Shown here: positions 30,629-34,967 of the stretch, piece after piece
How the letters are laid out: each line of letters opens with the position of its first letter
Numbering within the stretch: position 1 is the stretch's first letter
Source: Tahibacter aquaticus
GTDB taxonomy: Bacteria > Pseudomonadota > Gammaproteobacteria > Xanthomonadales > Rhodanobacteraceae
Length of the DNA: 64,000 nt
Direction: 5' to 3'
NCBI RefSeq assembly: GCF_004363655.1
Contig: NZ_SNZH01000001.1
Coordinates: 458,451 to 522,450, forward strand
Notes under the pieces: generated by a model
What the model was told of the DNA's origin: nothing
Seen by the model: the letters and a program-made list of their open reading frames with translations, nothing else
Database searches by the model: none
Program-made: the position numbers and the translations under genes

Positions 30629-31613
30629 GTACGCGCCCACCGATCCGCAGCACGCCGCCGCACTGCTGCAGCAGGCCATGGTGGCTGGTCAGTCCGGACG
30701 CTGGGAACAGGCCGCCGCCGGCCTGCGCGATGCCTGGCGCGCCGATCCGGCACAGCACCTGGCCGGACAAGGTCTGCTCGAATGCGCCGCGCAACTGCTG
30801 CGCCAGGGCCGGCAAGCGCCGCCACGACCGCCGGATGCACTGGCTGCCGGCGCCATTTCGGTGATTGTCTGCAGCGTGGAGCCGGCACGCCTGGCACGGC
30901 TGCGGCACGATCTGGAACGCGAGCTGGCCGGCGAAGACTGGGAACTGGTGCATATCGCCGACGCGCGCTCGCTCAATGACGGTTACGCGCGCGGAATGGC
31001 GCGGGCACGGGGCGAATTGATCGTGCTGTGCCACGACGACATCGGCATCCTGACGCGGCGCTTTGCCCAGCGTCTGCGCGAATATCTGGCGCGCTTCGAT
31101 CTGGTCGGCGTCGCCGGCACCGACCGGCTCAGCGGACCGAAATGGTTCTGGCAGGGGCCACCGCACACCTATTCCTGGGTCAGCCAGCCGCACGGCCAAG
31201 CCTGGCTGGCAGGACTGCTCGGCGCCTACGGTCCGCTGATCGACGATGCACAGGCGCTGGACGGGGTATTTCTTGCTGCACACCGCGCGACGCTGGAGCA
31301 ACTGGGCTTCGACGGTGCACGCTTCGACGGTTTCCACTTTTACGATCTGGACCTGAGCTGGCGCGCCCACCGCGCCGGCCTACGCTGCGCGATCGGCCTG
31401 GATCTGCTGATCTGGCACGCGTCCGGCGGCAATTTCGCCGCCAGCTGGCAGCAGTATGCGCAACGCTTTGTGGATAAATTCCCCGATATTGCGCCGCGCC
31501 AGCCGGCCGGTCTGTATCGACCCGGCACGCTGATGTTGCCCGATGCGAACCTGGCCGAACCTGTCTACGACTGGATCGCGCACTGGCTGCAGCAGGCGTC
31601 ACCGTCGCGCTGA
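30621..31613 (+). CDS. Glycosyltransferase family 2-type protein
   Basis: A 330-residue protein with a short TPR-like helical N-terminus (about 8-65, LLQQAMVAGQSGRWEQAAAGL) and a GT-A domain: SVIVCSVEPARLARLRHDLE, then SLNDGYARGMARARGELIVLCHDDIGI, where HDDI replaces the usual DxD and is typical of the Glyco_tranf_2_5 group. Later DGFHFYDLDLSWRAHRAGL is the acceptor-side block. No signal peptide or membrane segments. It overlaps the GT41 gene by 8 bases, so the two are translated together and probably act in one pathway, such as extending a protein-linked or surface glycan. Donor and acceptor cannot be read from the sequence. Confidence 0.83.
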   Translation: MPEYAPTDPQHAAALLQQAMVAGQSGRWEQAAAGLRDAWRADPAQHLAGQGLLECAAQLLRQGRQAPPRPPDALAAGAISVIVCSVEPARLARLRHDLERELAGEDWELVHIADARSLNDGYARGMARARGELIVLCHDDIGILTRRFAQRLREYLARFDLVGVAGTDRLSGPKWFWQGPPHTYSWVSQPHGQAWLAGLLGAYGPLIDDAQALDGVFLAAHRATLEQLGFDGARFDGFHFYDLDLSWRAHRAGLRCAIGLDLLIWHASGGNFAASWQQYAQRFVDKFPDIAPRQPAGLYRPGTLMLPDANLAEPVYDWIAHWLQQASPSR

Positions 31614-31631
31614 TCCGGGGCCCGGCAACAG

Positions 31632-31661
31632 AAAAAAGCACGGCCGCTGACGCGGCCGTGC
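31632..31661 (-). terminator. Intrinsic terminator of the 158-residue secreted protein gene A
   Basis: On the minus strand GCACGGCCGC pairs with GCGGCCGTGC around a 4-base loop, followed by TTTTTT. It is 33 bases downstream of the stop at 31694. The stem can also halt plus-strand reading from the glycosyltransferase pair, though that side lacks a T-run. Confidence 0.88.
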
Positions 31662-31693
31662 CTGCTATGGGCGTTCCTTGCCCGCGCTACCGC

Positions 31694-32170
31694 TTACGGA
31701 TAGCAGCTGCTGCTGTAGGGAATGAAACCGTTGTTCCAGCCGACCACCTTGTAGTAGTTGACCGGCCCGTTGTAGCTGCTTTCGTTGGAACAGGTCGAGA
31801 TGGCTGCGGAACGGGTGTCGCCGCCGCTCGCGGCGCGGTAGACCGAACCGTTCAGGTCGATGCGCACCGACGCCGGAAACAGGGCGATCGCACCGGACAG
31901 GCTGACGTAACCGTCGTAGATCTGCGTGCACACGGCGTTGATATCGCCGGTATAGCAGTCGAAATACTGCTTCACGAAGGCCGGGCCGAAGCCCGCACGG
32001 TCGAACACCTTGTGGCCGTTGACGTAGATCTGGGTACGGGCGCCGCTGGTCGAAGTGACGTTCCAATACGACTGCAGATCGCTGACGCTGGTGAAAGGCC
32101 CGTTGCTGTACTGCGCGCTGGCCAAGCCGGGAAGGAGGACAGCCAAAGCCAGACCGATAAGTTTCTTCAT
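31694..32170 (-). CDS. Small secreted protein of unknown function, paralogue A
   Basis: A 158-residue precursor with signal peptide (1-19, MKKLIGLALAVLLPGLASA). The mature protein has four or more cysteines and the pattern NGPFTSVSDLQSYWNV, QIYVNGHKVFDRAGFGPAFVKQYF, IYDGYVSLSGAIALFPASVRIDLNGSVYR, STCSNESSYNG, and an end NGFIPYSSSCYP. It is clearly homologous to the protein at 32564-33040 (same length, same cysteine positions, SYW, FGPAFVKQYF and the Cys-Pro terminus). I do not recognise the family. Both genes have the same structured leader, so expression is probably co-ordinated. Extracellular or periplasmic, with disulfides likely. Confidence 0.8.
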   Translation of the reverse strand: MKKLIGLALAVLLPGLASAQYSNGPFTSVSDLQSYWNVTSTSGARTQIYVNGHKVFDRAGFGPAFVKQYFDCYTGDINAVCTQIYDGYVSLSGAIALFPASVRIDLNGSVYRAASGGDTRSAAISTCSNESSYNGPVNYYKVVGWNNGFIPYSSSCYP

Positions 32171-32202
32171 TTGCTAACTCCATTTATGCAGAAGGATGAA
32201 CA

Positions 32203-32260
32203 TCCGTGAAGGTCGCCGCCGGCCGCTCCGGATGCGGCAATTTCCATGGCGGCGGCGACC
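32203..32260 (-). promoter_or_regulatory. Conserved double-hairpin leader of paralogue A
   Basis: An outer stem of 10 perfect pairs (32211-32220 GGTCGCCGCC with 32251-32260 GGCGGCGACC) encloses an inner stem GCCGC/GCGGC (32222-32226 with 32234-32238, 7-base loop). The element ends about 33 bases before the ATG at 32170, which has GGAG as ribosome binding site. The same two stems in the same order precede paralogue B, with differing loop bases, so the structure looks maintained or recently duplicated. Confidence 0.7.
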
Positions 32261-32322
32261 AGACAATGATGCCGCTGCGCTGTCGCACAGGTCGCGACTG
32301 CCGCTTGCGCCGGGCGCAGAAA

Positions 32323-32350
32323 CAAAAAAGAAAGGGCTGCTTGCGCAGCC
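32323..32350 (-). terminator. Intrinsic terminator downstream of paralogue B
   Basis: On the minus strand GGCTGC-GCAA-GCAGCC is followed by CTTTCTTTTTTG. It lies about 210 bases after the stop at 32564, so paralogue B's transcript would carry a long 3' region that includes the inverted repeat at 32439-32474. It also isolates the leader of paralogue A. Confidence 0.8.
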
Positions 32351-32438
32351 GAACTGTCGGGACGAAACCGACCGCTTTCACGGTTGGGTGCCGCCGGTGG
32401 TGGAGATCAGCCGAGGGCGCACCACCGCCGGCCGGCAT

Positions 32439-32474
32439 GCCGGGCATCGGGCGCGTAGAAACCCGATGCCCGGC
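32439..32474. repeat. 13-base perfect inverted repeat in the paralogue B 3' region
   Basis: GCCGGGCATCGGG (32439-32451) and its exact complement (32462-32474) flank a 10-base loop. No T-run follows on either strand. The DNA from 32171 to 32563 holds no gene that I can support: it contains this repeat, the terminator at 32323-32350 and the leader at 32203-32260. The open frame across it on the minus strand is not protein-like. Confidence 0.7.
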
Positions 32475-32563
32475 AAAGATGCACAACGCAGTACCTGCAT
32501 CGTTCGATTGAAGCACCGGCGACAGCCCGGCTTTCAACGGACGGTCAGGTCACCTCAGCCGGC

Positions 32564-33040
32564 TCAGGGACACACGTTGGTGTAGTAGGGAACCCAGCCG
32601 TCCATGTAGGCCGTGACGAGGAAAAACGTCTCGACGCCGTAGTAGCTGGTATCGCCGCTACATGTCTCGATATCGACGATATCGAAGCCGCTGCCCGTGC
32701 CATTGCGGTACAGCGAACCGTCGACCCAGATCTTGGCGCTGGCTGGAATGGTGGAGACAAGGTCGCCGAGCAACTCGGCGCCATCGTGCAGATCGTTGCA
32801 GTCCACCCGGATATCGCCGGTCGCCGAACAGGTGAAGTACTGCTTGACGAAGGCCGGGTTGAAACCGGGCACATCGAGCACTTCGGCGCCGTTGACGAAG
32901 ATTTCGGTATGGCCGCCGCCCGCATTCGCATTCCAGTAGCTGGTCAGCGCGCCCACATTGGCGAACGGTCCGTCGCTGGCTGCCGCAATGCCCGAGGACA
33001 GAATCGCAACCAGCGCAAAACCGCAGAGTTTCCTGATCAT
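32564..33040 (-). CDS. Small secreted protein of unknown function, paralogue B
   Basis: A 158-residue precursor (ATG at 33040, after AAGGAG) with signal peptide about 1-21 (MIRKLCGFALVAILSSGIAAA). It aligns along its whole length with paralogue A: DGPFANVGALTSYWNA, EIFVNGAEVLDVPGFNPAFVKQYF, LHDGAELLGDLVSTIPASAKIWVDGSLYR, ETCSGDTSYYGVETFF and the end DGWVPYYTNVCP. Conserved cysteines imply two disulfides. Divergence at roughly half the positions says the duplication is old, yet the leader hairpins are nearly identical. The frame is open up to 33307 through the leader, but the signal peptide fixes the start. Family unknown. Confidence 0.8.
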   Translation of the reverse strand: MIRKLCGFALVAILSSGIAAASDGPFANVGALTSYWNANAGGGHTEIFVNGAEVLDVPGFNPAFVKQYFTCSATGDIRVDCNDLHDGAELLGDLVSTIPASAKIWVDGSLYRNGTGSGFDIVDIETCSGDTSYYGVETFFLVTAYMDGWVPYYTNVCP

Positions 33041-33065
33041 GTAGAGCTCCTTGTCGATGATGACT

Positions 33066-33122
33066 TCCGTGAATGTCGCCGCCGGCCGCTCCGGAAGCGG
33101 CTCAGTCCTTGGCGGCGGCGAC
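33066..33122 (-). promoter_or_regulatory. Conserved double-hairpin leader of paralogue B
   Basis: Outer stem of 9 pairs (33075-33083 GTCGCCGCC with 33114-33122 GGCGGCGAC) around an inner stem GCCGC/GCGGC (33085-33089 with 33097-33101, loop TCCGGAA). It ends 25 bases before the ATG at 33040. Sequence similarity to the leader of paralogue A continues more weakly for about 50 bases upstream. Confidence 0.7.
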
Positions 33123-33305
33123 GACAACAAGATGCCCGGCAGGGATCGCAGATCGCGCGACTGGCGCCCGCAGGCTGCAACTTCCGATGGGGCCGGCTCG
33201 ACCCGGGGCGGAATGCCGCGGCGGGGCTCATACCCTCGTCGCACTGGCCGCGACGGCGGGCTTGGCCGATAATCGCGGACTTTTCCGCCTTCCGGAACCG
33301 CTTCC

Positions 33306-34967
<1,662 letters not shown>

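Follow-up and report, generated by a model that had tools for sequence, protein, structure and literature searches.

Two paralogous genes of Tahibacter aquaticus are each headed by a 48-nt nested hairpin that very probably represents a conserved, structured RNA on the gene-sense strand, a real leader element that is absent from Rfam. This view is built on a comparison of the two copies in the 64,000-nt stretch of DNA analyzed here (the window) with copies in three further genomes. With respect to function, control by CsrA/RsmA is the leading candidate mechanism; the sequence of the leaders offers candidate binding sites for it, and we put it forward tentatively. Genes and leaders are located as follows:

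32564..33040, minus strand: gene 2, 158 aa, with a signal-peptide-like start (judged by eye) and four cysteines
33075..33122, minus strand: leader hairpin of gene 2, 48 nt, from comparative alignment and folds
31694..32170, minus strand: gene 1, 158 aa, a paralogue sharing 44% identity with gene 2 and falling outside the clade of gene 2 orthologues
32212..32259 (extended 32211..32260), minus strand: leader hairpin of gene 1, 48 nt, same structure with one extra outer pair

Both minus-strand open reading frames, claimed in a preliminary description as full-length paralogues of 158 residues, are confirmed, and the conserved cysteines mentioned there correspond to four that are common to both proteins and invariant in a four-sequence alignment. 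Searches of Pfam and NCBIfam returned 0 families for the gene 1 and gene 2 proteins, in agreement with the earlier statement that no known protein family fits; a scan of six family members yielded two Pfam families, each matched by a single member, at a best E-value of 0.021. Plasmid records queried with 137 aa of gene 1 gave no match. The frame of gene 2 extends well upstream of the ATG, across the leader, without a stop (33041-33307; 247 aa), and the same applies to both orthologues introduced below. The automatic annotation of the gene 2 start may be too early a call.

The protein is encoded in three of eight genomes of the genus, that of the host included, and in the same three among 233 genomes of the family. 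The other two carriers, Tahibacter caeni BUT-6 (G005) and the MAG Lysobacteraceae bacterium SCN 69-320 (G002), possess one gene each, orthologous to gene 2 (65-66% at the amino acid level) and residing at the same genomic place, between genes which, from their sequences, we take to be ettA and a glycosyltransferase-like gene. Relatives outside the genus are found mainly in myxobacteria: they are present in 20 of 195 Myxococcus-phylum genomes as opposed to three of 233 in the host family, and a named scan with two peptide patterns detected only one Myxococcus and one deltaproteobacterial MAG beyond the genus. The distribution of the protein appears patchy, and horizontal acquisition is perhaps the explanation. 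In a protein tree of 26 rows, from which the fragment L098 had been removed beforehand and which carries a long-branch warning with gene 1 among those branches, gene 1 is placed outside the clade formed by gene 2 and its orthologues (100/99). If the tree is right, the duplication therefore predates the species split.

The consensus hairpin consists of a 10-bp outer stem, an 11-nt bulge confined to the 5' side, a 5-bp inner stem and a 7-nt terminal loop, with the inner stem stacked directly on the outer stem at the 3' side. The nested double hairpin originally proposed is present in both copies, albeit with an outer stem of 10 rather than 9 bp, because G10-C39 also pairs, and its distance from the ATG, put at 25-33 nt in the preliminary description, had to be corrected to 34 nt for gene 2 and 41 nt for gene 1. 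Single-sequence folding reproduces exactly the consensus for gene 1, while the leaders of gene 2 and G005 gain two loop pairs and that of G002 differs inside. The four 48-mers have predicted stabilities of -27.9 to -30.2 kcal/mol, with MFE z-scores of -3.26, -2.89, -2.07 and -3.03.

Between the two window copies 42 of 48 hairpin positions agree and all six differences are unpaired in the consensus structure, just as loop and flanking bases had been described as diverging more than the stems. Fourfold-degenerate sites of the two genes, on the other hand, are identical at only 16 of 35 positions and the proteins at 44%, so that conservation of the leader far exceeds that of weakly constrained DNA and the notion of a retained RNA structure ahead of diverged proteins is borne out. 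These figures, together with the position of gene 1 outside the clade of gene 2 orthologues, also speak against a recent gene copy as the source of the likeness. The wider proposal that the leaders resemble each other from common ancestry only, be it through such a copy or through an encoded leader peptide, is highly improbable: compensatory changes between species disfavor it, and the one feature in its favor, a gene 2 frame that runs without stops across the leaders of gene 2 and its two orthologues, is accompanied by a pattern of codon changes in that frame (12 nonsynonymous and two synonymous in G002, 14 and one in G005) which, combined with an in-frame stop just before the ATG of gene 1, led us to reject a leader peptide. 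The stems of both window hairpins have the same sequence; a C-G in place of U-A at one outer position and a U at another are common to G002, G005 and a third genome, G006. Given the older duplication, it is possible that local gene conversion, confined to the leaders, or selection has kept the window stems identical.

In an alignment of the five copies, that is, those of gene 1, gene 2, both orthologues and G006, all 50 cells of the outer stem are paired. Compensatory pairs, which the preliminary description had singled out as a check, exist in four of the ten outer-stem pairs (C-G/U-A, C-G/G-C, G-C/A-U and C-G/U-A), changed on both sides with 100% pairing, and six slid control structures contained 0 double-changed pairs. 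Among 500 column shuffles, the observed paired-cell share, number of double-changed cells and covariation score were each reached by five, the number of double-changed pairs by 21 and that of pair types by 113. When G006 is set aside, the remaining four sequences contain three double-changed pairs (118 of 500 shuffles reach this) and a score reached by 20 of 500. The inner stem exhibits wobble changes only, plus one broken cell, all of them in G006. We consider this covariation support strong for so few sequences, not overwhelming. Invariant in all five among the 19 unpaired hairpin columns are only one C, the GGA of the bulge and the CCGGA of the loop; the latter is part of a UCCGGA that is unchanged in the four gene-preceding leaders and reads GCCGGA in the gene-less G006 copy.

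The genome of the host contains two leader copies only, as judged by BLAST. A covariance-model scan of 233 genomes, run with strict filters such that few candidates were scored per genome, returned five places at 78.9-98.6 bits, the others listed not exceeding 32.1 bits. A pattern for the inner hairpin had two exact matches, both of them the window leaders, and 24 matches at up to two mismatches versus 48 for the reversed control. On the basis of two copies in its own genome and five clear places in 233 genomes, the alternative of a dispersed (REP-like) repeat was rejected. The leaders of the orthologues, the compensatory pairs and this absence of clear copies elsewhere support what had been suggested from the two window copies, namely a cis-acting RNA element and not just a recent copy. 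The leader had also been expected ahead of further family members; this is the case for both congeneric orthologues and not for 23 tested loci of relatives outside the genus, where a model built on gene 1, gene 2, G002 and G005 gave a single match (13.3 bits, E 0.38), and the idea that the leader travels with the whole protein family was therefore rejected. No module was detected in the gap upstream of ettA in G001, G003, G004 and G007: the best match of these loci (16.1 bits, E 0.016) lies outside the gap and the gap of G003 provides merely a 7.1-bit match (E 1.6); hit L126 in G007 (34.6 bits, E 6.7e-4) was rejected by eye, as it is devoid of the shared dyad arrangement or GGA loop. In agreement with the earlier remark that no riboswitch fits, no Rfam family matched at gathering score in window positions 31500-33400 or in loci L008, L009, L109 1400-1750, the lowest E-value (0.0047) being that of the sRNA BjrC68 in L109, whose match covers the terminator-side half and reaches 20.4 of the 39 bits needed. 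Among the Tahibacter genome papers listed, none describes the element in its title or the opening of its abstract, which is no proof of absence.

The hairpin belongs to a larger module that has the same layout in five of five copies: TCGC-N7-GCGA, exactly 11 nt, CANNNT, 6 nt, hairpin. In the window, the additional parts and the terminator-like hairpins are:

33146..33160, minus strand: dyad TCGC-N7-GCGA of gene 2, upstream of the hairpin; operator or small hairpin
33129..33134, minus strand: CATCTT, putative -10-like CANNNT box of gene 2, 11 nt after the dyad
32283..32297, minus strand: dyad TCGC-N7-GCGA of gene 1, upstream of the hairpin
32266..32271, minus strand: CATCAT, putative -10-like CANNNT box of gene 1, 11 nt after the dyad
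32335..32350, minus strand: terminator-like hairpin after gene 2, before the module of gene 1
31636..31663, minus strand: terminator-like hairpin after gene 1, 12 pairs followed by a T run

C, A and T of the CANNNT box are invariant, as are all eight positions of the dyad arms compared with one of seven in the spacer. TCGC-N7-GCGA is present four times in the 64-kb window, in the two modules, at about 33239-33253 in the same ettA gap and once elsewhere. The dyad is a candidate operator of a regulator, and the invariance of its arms against its spacer would suit a more general proposal, in which dimeric regulators bind the inverted repeats as DNA operators and RNA folding is incidental. This is very unlikely in the case of the hairpin, since changes on both sides keep pairing, not sequence, and five G-U cells but no A-C cell occur when the hairpin is read on the gene-sense strand, meaning that these cells pair in the gene-sense RNA only.

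A simple sigma-70 scan found no promoter. Dyad and -10-like box nevertheless look like elements that place the RNA start at the stem: in five of five modules, 6 nt separate the end of the box from the first paired base, so the RNA would start about there. This spacing and the very stable stem are what one would expect of a plain 5'-terminal stabilizer that protects against decay enzymes, involves no regulator and contains GGA incidentally. Such a device needs no conserved unpaired bases, however, while GGA and CCGGA are invariant in all five copies, and the RNA start at the stem is itself an inferred position; we regard this explanation as rather unlikely. The terminator-like hairpin between gene 2 and the module of gene 1 makes the two genes look like separate units, although the scan as such found two terminator-like sites versus 1.7 expected from shuffles and is weak alone. 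Each gene probably forms its own transcription unit with a common control module.

The fifth copy precedes no gene of the family. In G006 (L072:2060-2200) the module is situated in the ettA gap and is followed directly by a terminator-like hairpin (one such site found, 0.2 expected), and the genome, which is 99% complete, gave no match to the protein. A model built from the other four modules retrieves this copy with 48.4 bits (E 5.5e-7), the next non-member scoring 34.6 bits (E 6.7e-4). A hairpin-only model assigns it 30.2 bits and scores three other places of the G006 genome higher; seven hits below the top four of that model were read (L018, L019, L024, L025, L031, L032 and L039) and L039 alone, the hit in the G006 ettA gap, was kept. 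Because the hairpin-only model ranks it low, it is the flanking dyad and synteny that carry the case for accepting the copy. The core of the G006 terminator, GGCTGCGCAAGCAGCC, also forms the window hairpin that follows gene 2, which makes an orphan leader from a lost gene the simplest history. At the same time, the 102-nt unit is a candidate for a free-standing small RNA; it contains CAGGAUG, only four GGA and no repeated hairpins.

The conserved unpaired GGA motifs led to the reading that the leader is controlled by CsrA/RsmA, and each window leader contains three candidate CsrA sites:

33106..33111, minus strand: CAAGGA in the 5' bulge, gene 2
33063..33072, minus strand: TCACGGAAGT after the stem, gene 2, matching WCANGGANGW
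33048..33053, minus strand: CAAGGA over the Shine-Dalgarno sequence of gene 2
32243..32248, minus strand: CATGGA in the 5' bulge, gene 1
32200..32209, minus strand: TCACGGATGT after the stem, gene 1, matching WCANGGANGW
32179..32183, minus strand: ATGGA at the Shine-Dalgarno sequence of gene 1

WCANGGANGW is the consensus of CsrA sites; it is encountered once per window leader and is absent from both orthologue leaders. The four leaders of 82-89 nt contain three, two, two and two CANGGA, numbers that dinucleotide shuffles reach at frequencies of 0.0002, 0.0008, 0.0076 and 0.0018, and the share of 82-nt stretches of the window with at least three CANGGA, gene 2 included, is 0.000149. Counts of GGA alone are ordinary (0.069, 0.013, 0.128 and 0.062 in shuffles), one GGA per gene being expected because of the Shine-Dalgarno sequence. 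The rules of CSRA_TARGET were re-coded for this analysis from the available part of their description (PMC4066749). All four genes carry A(N)GGA at -30 to +5, on or close to the Shine-Dalgarno sequence; three or more primary sites, including two pairs spaced 10-60 nt, occur in four of four within 200 nt and in three of four within 90 nt, G005 failing. These rules are loose here, as they are also passed by seven of 72 SD-ATG sites, the genes under study included, and by two of 44 other called window genes, a background with approximate gene calls and starts in which the start of gene 2 was probably miscalled.

Accessibility was predicted by folding inferred transcripts that run from the hairpin through codon 10, with sites called open at a mean unpaired probability >0.5. 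The GGA of the bulge is open in three leaders (0.98, 0.95 and 0.85) and mostly paired in G002 (0.38), that of the loop is open in one of four (0.40, 0.96, 0.36 and 0.40), and that of the Shine-Dalgarno sequence in none (0.25, 0.16, 0.44 and 0.00). A conserved partner of the Shine-Dalgarno sequence was rejected, for the partners of its mostly paired GGA differ among the four predicted transcripts. The genome of the host encodes two CsrA proteins (C16:32482-32637 and C15:54683-54838), both with L4 and R44, the residues that a figure legend in PMC7652899 points out. SELEX ligands of CsrA, as far as the accessible part of the same source goes, favor short stems and GGA in a hexaloop with a preceding ACA (PMC7652899), whereas the leader has its A(N)GGA in a bulge that adjoins a long GC helix, and its loop GGA is without the A.

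The complementarity of the bulge GGA to UCC of the loop is a further point against control by CsrA, and it fits the idea that the leader is a ligand- or RNA-sensing structure, either through a pseudoknot between these two segments or through kissing of the self-complementary UCCGGA, be it between gene 1 and gene 2 or in homodimers. The invariance of GGA and CCGGA in all five copies, UCCGGA in the four gene-preceding leaders and a Shine-Dalgarno GGA that is mostly paired in every predicted transcript, so that there is something to open, are in keeping with such a sensor. Invariant bases, however, yield no covariation for the proposed pairs, GCCGGA in the gene-less copy is an imperfect palindrome, no Rfam riboswitch matches at threshold, and the partners of the Shine-Dalgarno sequence differ between leaders. 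A sensing structure is hence unlikely in our estimation.

If the leader is indeed controlled by CsrA/RsmA, the mRNA would begin at or near the stable nested hairpin, downstream of the dyad and the CANNNT box, and the rigid helix of 10+5 bp would display A(N)GGA in the 11-nt bulge and GGA in the loop at its tip. Anchored on the hairpin or, in the window genes, on the post-stem UCACGGA(A/U)GU site, a CsrA dimer could bridge from there to the GGA of the Shine-Dalgarno sequence and block the ribosome, as on E. coli glgC, with the consequence that the exported protein would be made only once CsrA is titrated away. Located at the extreme 5' end, the hairpin could additionally shield the mRNA from decay. 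A bolder variant, in which we place little belief, sees the module primarily as a regulatory RNA: G006 would retain it as a free 102-nt CsrA-binding sRNA, and in the relatives it would head the mRNA of a myxobacterial-type exported protein, sense and titrate CsrA, and allow the two leaders to cross-regulate.

The element thus described is compact, has no Rfam entry and yet good comparative support, and was found from raw sequence. It outlasts the rapid change of its protein and is present even where the protein gene is not. If CsrA binds, the leader would constitute a platform with GGA presented in a bulge, unlike the usual hexaloop, and would open a first way into the regulation of an exported protein family that is common to Tahibacter and myxobacteria and for which no named family was found.

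The hairpin in the ompA leader is a 5'-terminal stabilizer of mRNA, and the Tahibacter leader resembles it in having a stable stem at the inferred 5' end and differs from it in its conserved unpaired GGA motifs. The G006 unit is reminiscent of the CsrB/RsmZ sRNAs in that it combines the hairpin with a terminator-like hairpin in 102 nt and its CAGGAUG fits the CsrB repeat, given as CAGGA(U/A/C)G in the accessible part of PMC7652899; with only four GGA, no repeated hairpins and no Rfam match at threshold, it differs from them and is a candidate from sequence. Closer to the host, which belongs to the same order, Lysobacterales, the hrpG and hrpD leaders of Xanthomonas citri are bound and stabilized by RsmA and have GGA in loops of a structured leader, according to the portion of PMC3937308 at hand (PMC3937308). 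Those leaders are longer (182 and 204 nt) and precede other genes, and two other hrp leaders with GGA are described in the same portion as unbound by RsmA (PMC3937308), which is a warning for motif-based prediction. In the CsrA-repressed glgC leader of E. coli, as presented in the accessible part of PMC7652899, one GGA is located in an upstream hairpin and another over the Shine-Dalgarno sequence (PMC7652899). The Tahibacter leader likewise has GGA in an upstream hairpin and at the Shine-Dalgarno sequence, but its best exposed A(N)GGA, a candidate site, is offered by an 11-nt bulge of a long GC helix instead of by a hexaloop.
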